A stretch of 64,000 nt of DNA from positions 496,001-560,000 of the forward strand of contig OY282446.1 of NCBI GenBank assembly GCA_958295975.1, given 5' to 3'. A program made the translations under genes and the position numbers. Position 1 is the stretch's first letter. Each line of letters starts with the position of its first letter. Of this stretch, positions 47,187 through 56,255 are shown one piece after another. Below the pieces are notes generated by a model. The model made no database searches, was not told where the DNA came from, and saw only the letters and a list, made by a program, of their open reading frames with translations. This stretch comes from Tepidiformaceae bacterium. Its GTDB lineage: Bacteria > Chloroflexota > Dehalococcoidia > Tepidiformales > Tepidiformaceae.

Positions 47187-48167
47187 ATGCCCTATCAGCC
47201 GGAGCAACGCCGGGAAGAGGCCGCCGCCTTCCTCACGCACGCGCTGGGCAGGCCCGTGCGCGTGACGGAGCTGCGCCGCCTCGCCTCGGGGCAGTCGCGC
47301 GAGACGCTGGTGGTGCGCACGGACCAGCCGCGCGAGCCGGAGCTCGTCTTCCGCATCGAGCAGGGGGGCGTGCTGGGCACGTCGAGCGAGCCCGAATTCC
47401 GGCTGCTGCGGGCGCTCCACGGGGGGCCCGTGCCCGTGCCCAGGCCGCGCTGGCTGGAGGACGACCCGCGCTGGTTCGGCTACCCCTTCATGGTCACGGA
47501 GCTCGTGGAGGGCGACGGCGGCTTCGGCTACCTGGCCGAGCCGGAGCGGGCGCGGGAGGTGCTGCGTACGTACATCGCCTCCATCGGGGAGCTGCACCGC
47601 CATTCGCCGGAGGAGCTGGGGCTGGAGGGGCTCGGCATTCCCGCGGACACGCGCGAGAGCACGCACCAGCAGCTCGACCTGTGGGAGGGGCGCTACGAGC
47701 GCTACCGCTACGAGCGCGAGCCCCTGCTGGACGAGGCCATCGCCTGGCTGCGGCGCAACGCGCCCGCGCCCGCGCGCCCCGTGCGCCTCAACCACGGCGA
47801 CCTGAGCGCGGGCAACTTCATCCTGCGCGAAGGGAAGATCGTCGCGCACGTGGACTGGGAGTGGTCGAACCTGGGCGATCCGATGGAGGACGTGGCCTTC
47901 TTCGCCTACATCAAGGGGCGCATGTTCGGGCCGCCGGAGACGATCCTCGAGCTGCTGCGGGAGGTGGAGGCGTTCGACATCGGGGGCGAGGAGCTGCGCT
48001 ACTGGGAGGTCTTCAACTACATGAAGGCGGCCTGCGCCAACATCGCCACGCTCAAGGTGTTCAACGAGGGGCGCAACCACGGCCTGAACATGGTGGCCAT
48101 CGGCACGGGCGGCTTCCTCGGCTTCACGCGGCGCACGGCGGAGGCGCTGCGCGCGCCCCTCGCCTGA
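47187..48167 (+). CDS. APH-family phosphotransferase
   Basis: A 326-residue kinase-like protein. NHGDLSAGNFIL holds the catalytic Asp and Asn, and HVDWEWSNLGDP the metal-binding Asp. The N-lobe has the glycine-loop region near RLASGQSRETLVVR. This branch is close to the acyl-CoA-metabolism kinases (ACAD10/11 and LvaA types) and not to resistance enzymes. GGAGG precedes the ATG. It should act with the gene six bases upstream. Confidence 0.85.
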   Translation: MPYQPEQRREEAAAFLTHALGRPVRVTELRRLASGQSRETLVVRTDQPREPELVFRIEQGGVLGTSSEPEFRLLRALHGGPVPVPRPRWLEDDPRWFGYPFMVTELVEGDGGFGYLAEPERAREVLRTYIASIGELHRHSPEELGLEGLGIPADTRESTHQQLDLWEGRYERYRYEREPLLDEAIAWLRRNAPAPARPVRLNHGDLSAGNFILREGKIVAHVDWEWSNLGDPMEDVAFFAYIKGRMFGPPETILELLREVEAFDIGGEELRYWEVFNYMKAACANIATLKVFNEGRNHGLNMVAIGTGGFLGFTRRTAEALRAPLA

Positions 48168-48194
48168 GGGGCTGGCGCATTGGCGCGCGGGGTG

Positions 48195-48200
48195 TAGACT
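48195..48200 (+). promoter_or_regulatory. -10 box of the amino-acid transporter operon
   Basis: TAGACT sits 43 bases before the first binding-protein start. The leader between them carries a strong CAGGAGG site. Confidence 0.5.
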
Positions 48201-48242
48201 GCGCCGCTACACGGGCGCGGGAACGCGCAACAGGAGGCCTTC

Positions 48243-49334
48243 GTGGCACGGACGCGCATTGGGCTGTTCGCGGTCGCGATCATGGCGATGGTTGCCATGG
48301 TGGCGGTGGCTTGCGGCGACGACAACGATGACGGAGAGGGCGGTGGCGGCAACACGCTGCAGACGGTGATCGACCGTGGCGAGCTGCTGTGCGGCGTCAA
48401 GGACAGCCAGGCGGGCTTCGGCATCGTCGGGGCGGACGGCATCTTCTCCGGCTTCGACGTGGAGTTCTGCAAGGGCATCGCGGCCGCGGTGCTGGACGAC
48501 GCGAGCAAGGTGAGGTTCGTGCCGGCGTCGGCGGCGAACCGCTTCGAGCTGCTCTCCTCGGGCCAGATCGACGTGCTCATCCGCACGACCACGGTGACGG
48601 CCGAGCGCGACGCCGGTCGCGCCGTCGATTTCGCGCAGACCACCTTCTACACGGGCCAGGGCTTCGCCGTGCACGCCGACTCGGGGTTCAACTCCACGGC
48701 GGACATGGAAGGCGCCACCATCTGCGTCCAGTCGGGCACCACCACGGAGCAGAACCTGGACGACCACTTCAACGAGCTGGGCTTCGCCTACACGCCGCTG
48801 GGCGGCGAGGACCAGGATACGCAGGAGGCCTTTGTGGCGCGCCGCTGCGAGGTGTGGACGGCGGACCAGAGCAACCTGGCCTCGCGCATCTCGCAGCTGG
48901 AGAACCCCTCGCAGTACCGCGTGCTGGGCCAGATCATCTCGAAGGAGCCGCTGGCCCCGGGCGTGCGCGACAACGACAGCGAGTGGAAGGACGTGGTCAA
49001 CTGGGTCGTCTACGGCCTCATCAACGCCGAGGAACTCGGCGTCACGGGGGCCAACGTGGGGGCCATGGCCAGCAACCCGCCGAACGCCGCCGTGGCGCGC
49101 CTGCTGGGCGTGGCCTTCCAGGGCGGCGAGGTGGCGAACCTCGGCTTCGACGTGGACCCGCAGTTCGTCCAGCGCGCGCTCAGGGCCGTGGGCAACTACG
49201 GCGACATCTACGAGCGCACGGTGGCCGAGGTGGGCATCGACCGCGCCTGCACCCTGAACGCCCTCTACACGGAGGACAAGCGCAGCTGCCCGCCGGGCTC
49301 CGGCGGCATCCTCTACGCGCCGCCCTACCGCTAG
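48243..49334 (+). CDS. aapJ: Amino-acid ABC transporter binding lipoprotein 1 (AapJ-like)
   Basis: A 363-residue solute-binding lipoprotein. The signal peptide ends at MVAVACG, so Cys is lipidated, and an Asp/Gly-rich linker follows. The mature domain matches the AapJ/BztA family: GFSGFDVEFCKGIA-like segment, IDVLIRTTTVTAERD, DQSNLASRIS and the C-terminal YAPPYR. It differs from its two paralogs by an insert with two Cys before the end. Strong AGGAGG at the GTG start. It captures polar amino acids for the permease encoded downstream. Confidence 0.95.
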   Translation: MARTRIGLFAVAIMAMVAMVAVACGDDNDDGEGGGGNTLQTVIDRGELLCGVKDSQAGFGIVGADGIFSGFDVEFCKGIAAAVLDDASKVRFVPASAANRFELLSSGQIDVLIRTTTVTAERDAGRAVDFAQTTFYTGQGFAVHADSGFNSTADMEGATICVQSGTTTEQNLDDHFNELGFAYTPLGGEDQDTQEAFVARRCEVWTADQSNLASRISQLENPSQYRVLGQIISKEPLAPGVRDNDSEWKDVVNWVVYGLINAEELGVTGANVGAMASNPPNAAVARLLGVAFQGGEVANLGFDVDPQFVQRALRAVGNYGDIYERTVAEVGIDRACTLNALYTEDKRSCPPGSGGILYAPPYR

Positions 49335-49358
49335 GCGACGCGGCCGGAACGAACGACG

Positions 49359-49396
49359 CGGGAGCGGGCGGCCGGACGACCGGTCGCCCGCTCCCG
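49359..49396 (+). terminator. Intercistronic hairpin between binding proteins 1 and 2
   Basis: A 12-bp perfect stem (49359-49370 with 49385-49396) around a 14-base loop that itself contains CCGG repeats. No T-run follows. It could partly terminate transcription or protect the upstream mRNA, giving an excess of binding protein 1. Confidence 0.55.
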
Positions 49397-49416
49397 TCGC
49401 ATGAGAAGGGAACGCC

Positions 49417-50475
49417 ATGACGCGCAGGCGGTGGGGACTGGCCATCGTGGCCGCGATCGCGCTGCTGGCGGCGGCCTGTGGCGGCGGAAGCGGCGGCGGG
49501 GACGACGCCGACGGCGAGGTGCTGCGCTCCGTGCTCGACCGGGGCGAACTGCGCTGCGGCGTGAAGGGCTCGCACCCGGGCTTCAGCTTCGCCAACCCCG
49601 ACGGCTCCTTCTCCGGGTTCGACGTGGAGTTCTGCCGGGCGATCGCGGCGGCGGTGCTGGGCAACGACGGCGAGGACGTGGCGTTCGTGCAGGTGCCGTC
49701 GGCCACCCGCTTCGAGCTGCTCAACACGCGCCAGATCGATGTGCTCATCCGCACCACCACGGTGACGGCGGAGCGCGACGCGAGCCTGGGGCTGGAGTTC
49801 GGGCCCATCACCTTCTACACCGGCCAGAGCTTCGCCGTGCGCGCCGACTCCGGCATCCGCTCCACGGCGGACATGGACGGCATCACCATCTGCGTGCAGT
49901 CGGCGACGACGACCGAGCAGAACCTGAGCGACCACTTCAACGAGCTGGGCTACGACTACACGCCGCTGGGGGGCGAGGACCAGGAGAATCAGGACGCCTT
50001 CGCGACGGGCCGCTGCGACGCCTGGACGGGCGACCAGAGCAACCTCATCTCGCGCATCTCGCAGCTGCCGAACGCGGACGAATTCCGCGTGGTGGACCAG
50101 CTCATCTCGAAGGAGCCGCTGGCGCCGTTCGTGATCGACGGCGACCGCCAGTGGAAGGACGTCGTCAGCTGGGTGGTCTACGGGCTGATCAACGCCGAGG
50201 AGCTGGGCGTCACGCGGGAGAACGCGGCGGCATTGGCGGCGGACCCGCCGAACGCCGCCGTGGCGCGCCTGCTGGGGGCGCCCTTCAAGGGGGGCGAGGT
50301 GGCCGACCACGGCTTCGCCGTAGACCCGCAATTCCTCCGGCGCGCCCTGCTGGCCACGGGCAACTACGGCGAGATCTACGAGCGCACGGTGGCGCGCGTG
50401 GGCGTCCCCCGCGAGGGCACGCTGAACGCGCTCGTGCGCGACGGCGGCGTGCTCTACGCGCCGCCCTACCGCTAG
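49417..50475 (+). CDS. Amino-acid ABC transporter binding lipoprotein 2
   Basis: A 352-residue paralog of its neighbours. The lipobox is LLAAACG. The ligand-domain segments GFDVEFCRAIAAAV, DVLIRTTTVTAERD and DQSNLISRIS are kept, and it ends LYAPPYR. It is somewhat more diverged than the other two (ARVGVPREGT near the end), and may prefer other amino acids. GAAGGGA precedes the ATG. Confidence 0.94.
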   Translation: MTRRRWGLAIVAAIALLAAACGGGSGGGDDADGEVLRSVLDRGELRCGVKGSHPGFSFANPDGSFSGFDVEFCRAIAAAVLGNDGEDVAFVQVPSATRFELLNTRQIDVLIRTTTVTAERDASLGLEFGPITFYTGQSFAVRADSGIRSTADMDGITICVQSATTTEQNLSDHFNELGYDYTPLGGEDQENQDAFATGRCDAWTGDQSNLISRISQLPNADEFRVVDQLISKEPLAPFVIDGDRQWKDVVSWVVYGLINAEELGVTRENAAALAADPPNAAVARLLGAPFKGGEVADHGFAVDPQFLRRALLATGNYGEIYERTVARVGVPREGTLNALVRDGGVLYAPPYR

Positions 50476-50518
50476 CATGGCGGCGGGCGCGAGTCCCGTC
50501 GCGCAAAAGGAGCACACG

Positions 50519-51577
50519 ATGACGCGCAAGCGATGGGCACTGGCCGCCGCCACGGCGATGGCGGTGATCGCGCTGCTGGCGGCGGCCTGCGGCGGCGACG
50601 GCAACGGCGAGGAGGGCGGCGGCACCCTGCAGACGGTGCTGGACCGCGGCGAGCTGAAGTGCGGCGTGACGGACTCGCTGCCGGGCTTCGGCTTCAAGGA
50701 CCCGAACAGCGTCTACTCGGGCTTCGACATCGAGTTCTGCAAGGCCATCGCGGCGGCGGTGCTGGGCGACGCGGAGCAGGTCCAGTACGTGCCGGCCTCC
50801 TCGCAGGCGCGCTTCGAGCTGCTGGCCAGCGGCGAGGTGGACATCCTCGTGCGCGTGACCACGATCACGGCGCAGCGCGACGTGAGCCGCGGGGTCGATT
50901 TCGCGCAGACCACCTTCTACGACGGCCAGGGCTTCGTGGTGCACGCCGACTCCGACATCCGCACGGCGGAGGACATGGCGGGCACCACCATCTGCGTGGC
51001 CGCGGGCACGACCACGGAGCAGAACCTGGACGACTTCTTCAACGCGCGGGGGCTGGCCTACACGCCCCTCCAGGGCGACTGGCCGGACCCGCAGGACCAG
51101 TTCCTGGAGCGCCGCTGCGACGTGCTCACGAGCGACAAGTCGGGGCTGGCGGCGCGCATCTCGGCGCTGCCCAATCCGGAGGACTACCGCTTCCTGCCGC
51201 TGACCATCTCGAAGGAGCCGCTGGCGCCGGGCGTGCGCGACGGCGACACGCGCTGGAAGGACGTGGTCAACTGGGTGGTCTACGGCCTCATCAACGCCGA
51301 GGAGCTCGGCGTCACGCGGGACAACGTGGCGGCCATGGCCGCGGACCCGCCGAACGCCGCCGTGGCGCGCCTGCTGGGGGAGCCCTTCAAGGGCAGCGAG
51401 GTGGCGGACCTCGGCTTCGGCGTGGACGCGCAGTTCATCCAGCGCGCGCTCATGGCCGTGGGCAACTACGGCGACATCTACGCGCGCACGATCGAGCAGC
51501 TGGGCATCACGCGCGCGGGCACGCTCAACGCCCTCTACACGGAGGGCGGCATCCTCTACGCGCCGCCCTACCGCTAG
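50519..51577 (+). CDS. Amino-acid ABC transporter binding lipoprotein 3
   Basis: A 352-residue third paralog. It has the lipobox LLAAACG and a short acidic linker. In the conserved strand it reads VDILVRVTTITAQRD, with substitutions at positions that are invariant in the other two, which could shift ligand choice. ATG 50519 follows AAAAGGAG; an earlier in-frame ATG at 50477 would add a non-signal-like tail. It ends YTEGGILYAPPYR, closest to the orphan fragment at 21500. Confidence 0.94.
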   Translation: MTRKRWALAAATAMAVIALLAAACGGDGNGEEGGGTLQTVLDRGELKCGVTDSLPGFGFKDPNSVYSGFDIEFCKAIAAAVLGDAEQVQYVPASSQARFELLASGEVDILVRVTTITAQRDVSRGVDFAQTTFYDGQGFVVHADSDIRTAEDMAGTTICVAAGTTTEQNLDDFFNARGLAYTPLQGDWPDPQDQFLERRCDVLTSDKSGLAARISALPNPEDYRFLPLTISKEPLAPGVRDGDTRWKDVVNWVVYGLINAEELGVTRDNVAAMAADPPNAAVARLLGEPFKGSEVADLGFGVDAQFIQRALMAVGNYGDIYARTIEQLGITRAGTLNALYTEGGILYAPPYR

Positions 51578-51628
51578 GGTCGCCGGGGCGCGCGGCGGGA
51601 CGGGCGTCCGTTCCGCGCGCGCGTCCGG

Positions 51629-51634
51629 TATGGT
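51629..51634 (+). promoter_or_regulatory. Internal -10 box before the permease gene
   Basis: TATGGT is followed by seven bases and the ATG of an 11-codon ORF. It would supply a promoter for the permease and ATPase genes independent of the binding proteins. Confidence 0.55.
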
Positions 51635-51641
51635 TCGCGCC

Positions 51642-51677
51642 ATGAAACCCCTGAACGGCCACGCGGGCGCCGCATGA
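51642..51677 (+). CDS. Leaderless 11-residue mini-ORF coupled to the permease
   Basis: ATG AAA CCC CTG AAC begins an 11-codon ORF (MKPLNGHAGAA) whose TGA overlaps the permease ATG as ATGA. It lies seven bases downstream of TATGGT, so it would be translated from the transcript end, and ribosomes could then reinitiate on the permease, which lacks its own Shine-Dalgarno sequence. It may be an attenuator or simply an entry point. Confidence 0.5.
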   Translation: MKPLNGHAGAA

Positions 51678-52873
51678 CGACCATGACCGGCGGTCTGCCG
51701 CCGCCCGCGCCCACGCCGCTCTTCTTCCGTCGCGGCTTCCGCAACCTGCTGGCGCAGGGCGTCTACGTGGGCGTCACGGCGCTGGTCATCTTCTACGTGG
51801 TGCAGGCGCTGGGCGGGCGCGAGTACGGCTTCGGCTTCCTCAACCAGCCCGCCGCCTTCGACGTGGGCAACCAGTGGCTCATCAACGTGGACGGCACGAC
51901 CAACACGCGCTTCACCATGTACCTGGTGGGCATCTGGGCGACGGCGCGGGTGGTGATGGTCACGCTTCTGCTGTCCACGGTGCTGGGCGTGGCGGTGGGA
52001 GTGGCGCGGCTCTCCCCGAACTGGCTCCTCTCGAAGATGGCCATGCTGTTCGTGGAGATATTCCGCAACATGCCCCTCTTCGTGCAGATCGTGCTGTGGT
52101 ACGCGATCGTGCTCTTCGGCCTGCCGCAGATACAGAACGCGCTCGACCTCGGCGACACCTTCTTCCTCTCGAACCGGGGCATCGCCGTTCCCTGGCCGGA
52201 GCCGGACGGGGGCCTCTACGGCGGACCGGAGTGGCTGACGGCGGTGTGGGCGGCGGCGGTGGCGGCGGCGGCGGTGGCGGCCTGGTTCGTGCGGCGGCGG
52301 CGGCAGGAACTGGAGCGCGAAACGGGGCAGCCGCATTACCCCAACCGCTGGGGCATCCGGCTGTTCGCGGGGGGAGCGCTGGTCAGCTTCCTGGCGCTGG
52401 GACTGCCGCTCACGATCGACGTGCCCGTGCTCAGCGGCACGGACTACGCGGAGGGGCTGACGCTGCGCCCGGAGTTCACGGCGCTGACGCTGGGGCTCAC
52501 CATCTACACGGCCTCGTTCATCGCGGAGATCGTGCGCGCCAGCATCCAGGCCCTGCCGAAGGGGCAGACGGAGGCGGCCAACGCCATCGGCCTCTCCGGC
52601 TACCAGCGGCTGACGCTGGTGATCCTGCCGCAGGCGCTGCGCCAGATGATCCCGTCGGTGACGAACCAGTACCTGAACGCGAGCAAGAATTCGAGCCTGG
52701 CCTACGGCGTGTCCTACGCCGACCTGTTCTTCGTGGCGAACATCATCCAGAACAAGATCGGGCACGCGGTGGAGGTGTTCGCGCTGATCATCGTCACCTA
52801 CATGCTCATGTCGCTGGCCATCTCGGTGGTCATGAATTTCCTCAACTCGCGCCTGACGCTGACGCGGGTGTAG
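51674..52873 (+). CDS. aapQ: Amino-acid ABC transporter permease 1
   Basis: A 399-residue membrane subunit with about eight helices and the large insert typical of AapQ/BztB. The ABC permease signature is ALPKGQTEAANAIGLSGYQRLTLVILPQALRQMIPS, which contacts the ATPase. VEIFRNMPLFVQIVLWY is the conserved helix. The ATG is overlapped by the mini-ORF stop. An Ala/Val-rich stretch near residue 195 is a low-complexity membrane helix. Confidence 0.95.
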   Translation: MTTMTGGLPPPAPTPLFFRRGFRNLLAQGVYVGVTALVIFYVVQALGGREYGFGFLNQPAAFDVGNQWLINVDGTTNTRFTMYLVGIWATARVVMVTLLLSTVLGVAVGVARLSPNWLLSKMAMLFVEIFRNMPLFVQIVLWYAIVLFGLPQIQNALDLGDTFFLSNRGIAVPWPEPDGGLYGGPEWLTAVWAAAVAAAAVAAWFVRRRRQELERETGQPHYPNRWGIRLFAGGALVSFLALGLPLTIDVPVLSGTDYAEGLTLRPEFTALTLGLTIYTASFIAEIVRASIQALPKGQTEAANAIGLSGYQRLTLVILPQALRQMIPSVTNQYLNASKNSSLAYGVSYADLFFVANIIQNKIGHAVEVFALIIVTYMLMSLAISVVMNFLNSRLTLTRV

Positions 52874-52886
52874 GGAGGAGCGAGCG

Positions 52887-54116
52887 ATGACGGAACCGGT
52901 GGCGGGCGCGCGCAAGGTGGTGCTGCCGCCGCATCGCGTGCGCGCGCAGCGCCCCCTGGGGACGCGGGCGCGCGAATGGACGCGCGAGAACCTCTTCCCC
53001 TCGCCCGCGCAGGCGGTGGTGACGCTGCTCGCGCTGGCCTTCGCGACGGCGATCGTGGCCCTCGCCGTCTACCTCGTGCTCGCGGCCGAGTGGCGCGTGA
53101 TCACGGTCAACCGCTGGCTGCTGTTCGCGGGCGGCTTCCCCCAGGACCAGGAGTGGCGGCTGTGGGTGAGCGTGGCGCTGGTCTTCCCCCTCATCGGGGC
53201 GGCCTTCGGGCTCTGGGCCAGCCTCGGGCGGCGCGACCTGCTGTTCATGGCGCTGGCCGCCGGGTTCCTGTTCTTCCTCGCCAGGCACGGGGACGCGGGC
53301 TGGGCCTCGACGGTGTGGGTGGCGGGCTCGCTGGCGCTCTTCTTCGCGGGCTACCTGGTCTGCCGCCTGGTCCCGCGGGAGCCGGGGCGCGCGCGCTCGA
53401 TCGCGACCTGGACCGCGGGCGGCGCGCTGGCGCTGGCGCTGCCCGCCGTGCTGGCCGTGCTGATGGCGGCGGGGGGCGCGCGCACGAACGAATTCAGCGG
53501 CTTCATGATGAACCTGATCCTCGCGCCCGTGGGCATCGCCGGGGGGCTGCTGCTGGCCATCCCGCTGGCGGTGGGGCGGGCCTCCTCGCTGCGCGCCGTC
53601 TCGTGGACGTGCACGGCCTACATCGAGCTCATCCGCGGGGCGCCGCTGATCGGCTGGCTGTTCGTGGCCCTGTTCATCCTCGAGGACGTGATCGCGGGCG
53701 ACCTGATCGTGCGCACGATGGTGGTGCTGGCGGTGTTCACCTCCGCCTACATCGCGGAGTACATCCGCGGGGGGCTGCAGGCGCTGCCGCACGGGCAGAC
53801 GGAGGCGGCGCAGGCCGTGGGGCTGGGGCGAACGCGCACGCTGCAGCTGGTGGTGCTGCCGCAGGCGCTTCGCATCTCCATCCCGCCCATCGTGGGGCAG
53901 GCCATCAGCCTCTGGAAGGACACCGCCCTGATCTCGGCCATCCTGCCCCTGCGCGAGCTGGTGGGGAACTCGAAGGCCGCCATCGCGCAGCCGGAGTTCA
54001 TCGAGAACCGCATCGAGGTCTACGTCTTCGCGGCGGTGCTGTTCTGGATCGTGGCCTTCGTCATGTCGCGCGTCTCGCAGCGCATGGAACGCTCGCTGGG
54101 CATCGGCGAGCGGTAG
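52887..54116 (+). CDS. aapM: Amino-acid ABC transporter permease 2
   Basis: A 409-residue partner permease (AapM/BztC type). The N-terminal region holds additional helices, and IELIRGAPLIGWLFVALFIL and ALPHGQTEAAQAVGLGRTRTLQLVVLPQALRIS are the conserved core and EAA loop. It starts 13 bases after aapQ with GGAGGAGCG upstream. Together with aapQ it forms the membrane channel. Confidence 0.95.
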   Translation: MTEPVAGARKVVLPPHRVRAQRPLGTRAREWTRENLFPSPAQAVVTLLALAFATAIVALAVYLVLAAEWRVITVNRWLLFAGGFPQDQEWRLWVSVALVFPLIGAAFGLWASLGRRDLLFMALAAGFLFFLARHGDAGWASTVWVAGSLALFFAGYLVCRLVPREPGRARSIATWTAGGALALALPAVLAVLMAAGGARTNEFSGFMMNLILAPVGIAGGLLLAIPLAVGRASSLRAVSWTCTAYIELIRGAPLIGWLFVALFILEDVIAGDLIVRTMVVLAVFTSAYIAEYIRGGLQALPHGQTEAAQAVGLGRTRTLQLVVLPQALRISIPPIVGQAISLWKDTALISAILPLRELVGNSKAAIAQPEFIENRIEVYVFAAVLFWIVAFVMSRVSQRMERSLGIGER

Positions 54117-54137
54117 GATTCGGAGAGGAGCGTGAGC

Positions 54138-54896
<759 letters not shown>

Positions 54897-54977
54897 CGCG
54901 CGGCGGTGGCGCGGAGCCGCCCCGACGGCGTACGCTCGGGCCATTCCCGCCCCGCGAGGGCCGCAGGAGCGAATGGC

Positions 54978-56255
54978 ATGGCGCTGGCCGATTTCAACCC
55001 CCTCGACCCGGAGACGCTGGAGTGCCCCTACCCCTTCTACGAGGCGCTGCACGCGGAGGCGCCGGTGCACATGGTGCCGCAGCTGGGGATGGCGGTGGTG
55101 AGCACCTACGACCTCATCCGCGAGGTGGTGCACGACCCCGCCACCTACTCCTCGGCCATGCCCACGGGCCCCGTCGACCTGCCGGGCATGGAGACGGGGC
55201 CGGAGGACGCGGAGCTCGCGGAGCTGCGCGCGCAGACGGCGCGCTCGAGCGCGCCCACGCTGCTGGCGGCGGACCCGCCCTGGCACGCGCGCTACCGCTC
55301 GCTCGTGAACAAGGCCCTCTCGGCGCGGCGCGTGGCCGGCATGGAGGGCTACGTGCGCGAGATCGTGACGGAGCTGATCGACGGCTTCATCGACGACGGC
55401 AAGGCCGATTTCACGAGCCAGTTCGCGGACGAGCTGCCGATGGCGGTGATCGCGGACCAGATCGGGGTGCCGCGCTCGGACCTGCGCGATTTCAAGAAGC
55501 GCGCGGACCTGGCCATCGGCGGCATCGAGCGCACCATTCCGCCCGAGGAGGAGCGCGAGGTGCTGCGCGCGGGGCTGGAGATGCAGGAGTACTTCCTGAT
55601 GCGCGCGGAGGAGCGCCGCCGCGATCCGAAGGACGACATCCTGACCACGCTGGCCACGGCCGAGCTGGAGACGGACGAGGGCCGGCGTCCGCTGAACGAC
55701 GCCGAGATCCTGAGCATCCTGCAGCAGCTGCAGGTGGCGGGGAAGGAGACGACCGCGCACATCATCGGGAGCGCGATGCTGCTGTTCATCGAGAACCCGG
55801 AGCAGCTGGCGAAGGTGCGCGCCAACCCGGAGCTGATCGGGAACATGACGGAGGAGGCGCTGCGCATGGAGTCGCCCGTGCGCGCGCTCTTCCGCACGAC
55901 CACGCGCGAAACCACGCTGGGCGGGGTGACGCTGCCCGCGAAGACGACGCTGATGCTCATCTACCACGCGGCCAACCGCGACGAGCGCGAGTTCGCGGAG
56001 GCGGCGCGCTTCGACGTGGAGCGCGAGAACGCGCGCAACCAGCTGGCCTTCAGCGCGGGGCCGCACTACTGCATCGGGGCGGCCCTGGCGCGGCTGGAGA
56101 TCCGCGTGGCCTTCGAGGAAGTGCTGCGGCGCATGACGAACTTCCGGCTCGACCCCGACCATCCCGCGCCGCGCCACGAGCCCAGCTACATCCTGCGCGG
56201 GCTGGAGGAGCTGCGCATCCTGTTCGACAAGGCGCCGGCGCCGGTTCCGGCGTAG
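54978..56255 (+). CDS. Cytochrome P450
   Basis: A 425-residue bacterial P450. The I-helix motif is VAGKETT, ExxR is EEALRMES, and the heme loop FSAGPHYCIG holds the ligand at about Cys365. It starts FNPLDPETLECPYPFYEALHAEAPV, the classical class I N-terminus. GCAGGAGC precedes the ATG; an earlier in-frame ATG at 54906 overlaps the transporter end region and is less likely. It is not closely similar to the first P450. No ferredoxin lies next to it, so it may share the one at 3518. Confidence 0.95.
   Translation: MALADFNPLDPETLECPYPFYEALHAEAPVHMVPQLGMAVVSTYDLIREVVHDPATYSSAMPTGPVDLPGMETGPEDAELAELRAQTARSSAPTLLAADPPWHARYRSLVNKALSARRVAGMEGYVREIVTELIDGFIDDGKADFTSQFADELPMAVIADQIGVPRSDLRDFKKRADLAIGGIERTIPPEEEREVLRAGLEMQEYFLMRAEERRRDPKDDILTTLATAELETDEGRRPLNDAEILSILQQLQVAGKETTAHIIGSAMLLFIENPEQLAKVRANPELIGNMTEEALRMESPVRALFRTTTRETTLGGVTLPAKTTLMLIYHAANRDEREFAEAARFDVERENARNQLAFSAGPHYCIGAALARLEIRVAFEEVLRRMTNFRLDPDHPAPRHEPSYILRGLEELRILFDKAPAPVPA

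Follow-up and report, generated by a model that had tools for sequence, protein, structure and literature searches.

Leaderless small ORFs coupled to the gene behind them were described in mycobacteria by Shell et al. 2015 (PMC4633059). An ORF of this class has 5-50 codons, begins with an RTG at the 5' end of the mRNA, and ends in a TGA that overlaps the RTG of the downstream gene (RTGA). Coupled ORFs make up 23 of the 220 leaderless small ORFs there (vs. 32 of 1000 random), and the linkage is kept while the sequence of the peptide changes. Termination-reinitiation at RTGA was itself tested by Huber et al. 2019 (PMC6728339) in 14 overlapping gene pairs (ATGA/TGATG) from two organisms, 13 of the 14 showing strict coupling. 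Zheng et al. 2011 (PMC3160421) used a TANNNT signal just before the start codon to recognise leaderless genes, and a table in that paper records them in no more than 4 of the 12 Chloroflexi genomes, with a mean of 4.7%. A literature search judged by titles, with subscription journals mostly outside it, found no paper on leaderless mini-ORF coupling in Chloroflexota. The kind of element discussed below is already known from mycobacteria; its predicted occurrence in Chloroflexota would, as far as searched, be a new phylum for coupled leaderless mini-ORFs.

The window examined here, a stretch of 64,000 nucleotides, is bases 496001-560000 of a single-contig genome of 2.40 Mb. It carries, on the forward strand, a polar amino-acid ABC transporter locus in which three tandem genes for substrate-binding proteins (48243-51577; individually 48243-49334, 49417-50475, and 50519-51577) precede two permeases and an ATPase (51674-54896). 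The first permease, AapQ-like and 399 codons long (51674-52873), is 70% identical to that of L050, which is among the nearest named records, Dehalococcoidia/Chloroflexota MAGs; the second permease is AapM-like (52887-54116) and the ATPase GlnQ/AapP-like (54138-54896). A binding protein, two long permeases, and a GlnQ-like ATPase stand in the same order in the general L-amino-acid ABC transporter Aap (AapJQMP), from which the window locus differs in having three tandem binding-protein genes. None of the NCBIfam equivalogs reached its cut-off for the five transporter proteins with complete match tables. At this operon the binding-protein gene is single in the eight genus-mates examined (vs. three tandem copies here), and an 18-bp perfect GC hairpin with no T-run lies between copies 1 and 2, at about 49356-49401.

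The first binding-protein gene has an ordinary start, with a leader and a Shine-Dalgarno (SD) sequence behind the -10-like box TAGACT (48195-48200, forward strand, recognised by eye), and the second permease and the ATPase have clear SDs in front of them (GGGAGGAG and GAGAGGAG, respectively, also judged by eye). Ahead of the first permease, past a strong GC hairpin (51582-51629), stands TATGGT (51629-51634), predicted to be the -10 box of a leaderless promoter (TANNNT with a spacer of 7). The spacer TCGCGCC (51635-51641) leads directly into an 11-codon mini-ORF (51642-51677; ATG AAA CCC CTG AAC GGC CAC GCG GGC GCC GCA, or MKPLNGHAGAA) whose TGA (51675-51677) overlaps the permease start as ATGA (51674-51677). 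This layout had been reported in the first-pass annotation, and every detail of it proves exact on direct reading.

With its 11 codons the mini-ORF falls within the size range of the mycobacterial class (Shell et al. 2015, PMC4633059), with which it also shares the TGA overlapping a downstream RTG and the RTGA enrichment described below. A linkage kept while the peptide changes may have a counterpart at this gene in the stop/start overlap of seven of eight genus-mates, there made by a longer and mostly SD-led ORF. An RTG at the 5' end of the mRNA would likewise be common to both, the 5' end here being predicted rather than mapped. The differences from the class as presented in that paper are that the host belongs to Chloroflexota, not Actinobacteria, and that leaderless entry at the permease is found in one species only. 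The ATGA overlap and the predicted coupling also resemble the pairs of Huber et al. 2019 (PMC6728339), in which, however, the upstream partner is a full gene and not an 11-codon leaderless ORF.

Judged from its promoter boxes, the genome plainly uses leaderless starts. Gene starts were predicted with a simple codon-usage gene finder in two samples, the first of 464 kb including the window and the second covering another 400 kb, to which the model trained on sample 1 was applied; pooled, the samples hold 805 predicted genes in 864 kb, and 788 predicted starts entered the start statistics. TANNNT occurs 6, 7, 8, and 9 bases before the start in 35, 11, 8, and 8 of 435 starts in sample 1, and in 17, 16, 7, and 5 of 353 in sample 2, a sharp peak vs. 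the 0-2 starts at each of the spacings 0-5. Its presence in both samples marks this -10/ATG spacing as the leaderless signature of the genome. In all, 107 of the 788 predicted starts (13.6%) have the box at a spacer of 6-9, and their median SD energy is -3.4 kcal/mol, vs. -7.1 for the remaining starts. A high-GC genome with TANNNT just before the start codon is the setting of the leaderless genes of Zheng et al. 2011 (PMC3160421), and 13.6% lies well above the Chloroflexi mean in the table of that paper. The genus-mate G004 has a leaderless peak too (23, 9, 6, and 5 of 378 starts in 400 kb). The earlier suggestion of a leaderless-type promoter before the mini-ORF is supported, TATGGT-N7-ATG fitting the signature of the genome; the box itself is weak, at the 8th percentile among the 107 leaderless boxes, and the spacer TCGCGCC also precedes the ATG of another leaderless start in the genome (L121). 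A consensus sigma-70 scan of 48000-55000, which is uninformative for TANNNT promoters, found nothing.

The permease had also been said to lack a ribosome-binding site of its own, and the weak duplex between its upstream sequence and the anti-SD (-2.6 kcal/mol) agrees; 21% of the 788 predicted starts are equally weak or weaker. We consider it probable that the leaderless mini-ORF delivers ribosomes to this SD-less gene by termination-reinitiation. The promoter with its -10 box at 51629-51634 would start the mRNA at the A at 51642, or within a base or two of it, and ribosomes would bind its 5'-terminal AUG with no need of an SD, read the eleven codons, terminate at the UGA within AUGA, and step back one base to start again at the permease AUG. 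The mini-ORF would act as a ribosome-loading platform for the permease, the sequence of its peptide probably being of no importance, and the second permease and the ATPase would use their own SDs. The permease and ATPase genes would then be entered separately from those of the binding proteins. On a read-through mRNA, where the mini-ORF ATG is internal and lacks an SD, the permease would be translated poorly, so that the permease/ATPase half of the locus would answer mainly to its own promoter. From the sequence we infer an mRNA 5' end at 51642, translation of the mini-ORF, and re-initiation; that the permease depends on the mini-ORF, as the first-pass annotation had envisaged, is likewise inferred for any strict sense of the word.

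A single case ending at RTGA could be chance, since matched pools give 0-27% for each case. Cases were counted across the 864 kb as out-of-frame ATG or GTG codons with a box at a spacer of 6-8, within 150 nt upstream of a gene. Six of the 14 end exactly at RTGA, vs. an expectation of 2.0 from distance- and codon-matched draws of ATG/GTG without a box (P 0.0074), and the over-representation recalls the mycobacterial class; the unboxed out-of-frame ATG/GTG codons end at RTGA in 96 of 719. The two samples contributed 3 of 7 each, the second having been drawn as a test once the result of the first was known. Controls were intergenic-only and distance-matched; they replaced controls at other spacings, into which upstream genes with RTGA overlaps of their own had entered. 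The genome makes free use of RTGA overlaps, and 102 adjacent same-strand gene pairs overlap by exactly 4 nt. A seeming case at L139 was left out of the count, its gene start having moved on re-prediction. In 400 kb of G004 the enrichment is not replicated, only 1 of 9 out-of-frame leaderless starts ending at RTGA, and two of the six cases, at a GNAT gene (L163) and a NUDIX gene (L125), did not hold up.

The permease start region was compared in 17 relatives besides the window, including eight genus-mates (G001-G008). Contigs L045, L046, L048, and L052 were taken to be the same as those of G004, G003, G008, and G006, and were counted once; L053, whose start region is missing, was left out, as were G041 and, at roughly 35-45% identity, L054-L120. 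None of the 17 relatives compared has the leaderless 11-codon ORF, and under the refuting condition set in the first-pass annotation, loss of the ORF in close relatives, it counts as lost, although seven of the eight genus-mates have another upstream ORF (uORF) in the same slot, its stop overlapping the permease start. In these seven (G001-G007) a single binding-protein gene is followed by a strong hairpin, a conserved GTTAT box, and the uORF, which is longer than the mini-ORF, at 29-31 codons, and mostly SD-led; leaderless mini-ORF entry is found only in the window genome. The uORF begins with ATG, TTG, or GTG, its SD energy is -9.7 or better in six of the seven and weak in G005, and the overlap is 10 nt in six and 4 nt, as ATGA, in G002. 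The distance from uORF start to permease start is 80, 83, or 86 nt, always 2 mod 3, like the 32 of the window. In these genomes the permease is itself preceded by an SD (-8.1 to -11.7), given which the uORF coupling there may be dispensable, and no clear sign of purifying selection was found in the uORF peptide (pN about equal to pS).

Other relatives begin the permease in other ways. Two (L043 and L050) have TAGCCT-N6-ATG at the permease itself, making it directly leaderless, and six (G055, L042, L044, L047, L049, and L051) combine a box with what looks like a plain leader, about 45 nt long as judged by eye. No coupled uORF was seen at the permease of G008, and the distant, AT-rich G049 has a box at a spacer of 7 that may be chance. 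The permease tree places the window, G008, G055, L043, and L050 in one fork without branching order, and the initiation modes cannot be ordered on it. The contig of L051 is labelled Gammaproteobacteria; its operon is of the Dehalococcoidia type and groups with that of L042, and the contig is probably mis-binned.

A promoter for the permease side separate from that of the binding proteins, a further element of the first-pass annotation, gains support from the relatives. A hairpin of at least 10 pairs follows the binding-protein gene in 15 of the 16 that have a readable binding-protein end, and a promoter-like box precedes the permease in most. The hairpin of the window (51582-51629), recognised by folding and placed as in the relatives, has an energy of -43.8 kcal/mol over 69 nt (z -2.19) and no T-run. 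Terminators made of a hairpin plus a T-run were found at 2 of 232 convergent gene ends in the window genome, vs. 7 of 115 in G004; with no T-run, and with canonical terminators nearly absent from the genome, the hairpin cannot be classed as a terminator. These facts, and the weakness of the TATGGT box, would suit a reading in which the box is fortuitous and read-through from the three binding-protein genes is the sole source of permease expression. It is made distinctly improbable by the recurrence of the strong hairpin and the promoter-like box among the relatives, and by the consequence that a permease with neither an SD nor a leaderless start would have no entry site. It is also unlikely that the mRNA, begun at about 51642 or somewhat upstream, merely provides a short leader, with an unproductive mini-ORF and a permease AUG that is found directly by an SD-independent route. 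Such a route, or a set of misplaced starts, must exist, as 145 of the 788 predicted genes lack all three of an SD, a leaderless box, and an abutting upstream gene, and the six relatives with what seems to be a plain leader would fit it; but it leaves to coincidence an ATG exactly at leaderless spacing and a stop exactly at the permease start, and RTGA coupling is both enriched in the genome and conserved at other loci.

Two further readings concern the mini-ORF itself. Its ATG could be the true start of a longer permease, thrown out of frame by an assembly indel: the lineage behind the single-contig genome is uncultured, inserting one base would bring the two frames together, and the permeases of L043 and L050 do start directly at a leaderless ATG. 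The permease read from 51674, however, has an N-terminus (MTTMTGG...) that aligns to the starts in G001-G007 (MAVATGS..., MTVAAGS...) and is of normal length. This alignment rules out a frameshift or sequencing error as the main explanation, and with the same ATGA arrangement present in G002 we regard an indel as very improbable. The position of the mini-ORF before an amino-acid transporter gene might bring to mind a sensing leader peptide, or attenuator, that controls the permease by stalling. An attenuator would have a codon run and alternative hairpins in the transcript, but MKPLNGHAGAA contains no run of any amino acid and the strong hairpin (51582-51629) was found upstream of an mRNA predicted to start at 51642, so that this role is scarcely credible.

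Ribosome delivery by termination-reinitiation, the reading we prefer for the permease, can be compared with the five other RTGA cases of the genome, which were followed into the genus. Three of these loci have kept an RTGA-coupled mini-ORF immediately behind a promoter box. At an MFS transporter gene (L132), TACACT-N8-ATG and a GTGA-coupled mini-ORF are present in all 8 genomes with a close ortholog (the best match in G008, at 38% identity, was left out as a non-ortholog), and the mini-ORF, 12 codons long in the window genome, runs to 20 in seven genus-mates; of the three loci, this is the only one with strict leaderless spacing (N6-8) in all orthologs. At an E1 dehydrogenase gene (L164), GTGA coupling behind TACACT is found in 9 of 9 genomes, as N6-ATG in two and N9-GTG in seven, the reading being less certain in five of these seven because an in-frame RTG also lies a few bases from the box. 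At pdxT (L165), GTGA coupling is again found in 9 of 9, with N8-GTG in the window genome and TACAAT-N10-ATG in the other eight. The NUDIX gene has the arrangement in 3 of 9 genomes, with mostly strong SDs, and the GNAT gene was rejected as a case, having a leaderless box of its own at a spacer of 8.

These findings suggest that the leaderless mini-ORF coupling of mycobacteria also operates in a distant phylum. A wider claim can be offered tentatively, as a possibility somewhat short of an even chance: that this Dehalococcoidia lineage has, independently of the Actinobacteria, a general device for loading ribosomes that is under selection and consists of RTGA-coupled mini-ORFs, leaderless or nearly so, and that evolution keeps the coupling slot, with its stop overlapping a start, as the mode of entry (leaderless, near-leaderless, or SD-led) changes freely between species. 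The permease, the MFS transporter, the E1 dehydrogenase, and pdxT are named loci at which orthologs differ in ribosome entry and keep a coupled start, and the four together make a testable system for the evolution of translation entry. They also carry a warning: mini-ORFs of this sort escape gene callers, which may misjudge starts that have no SD as well. The leaderless 20-codon mini-ORF at the MFS gene reads MPSPLLSGQPGGDPERGAHR and variants of it in the seven genus-mates, and the mini-ORF at pdxT, of 14 codons, is conserved as MGPGRERSGGTHTT and variants in eight genus-mates.
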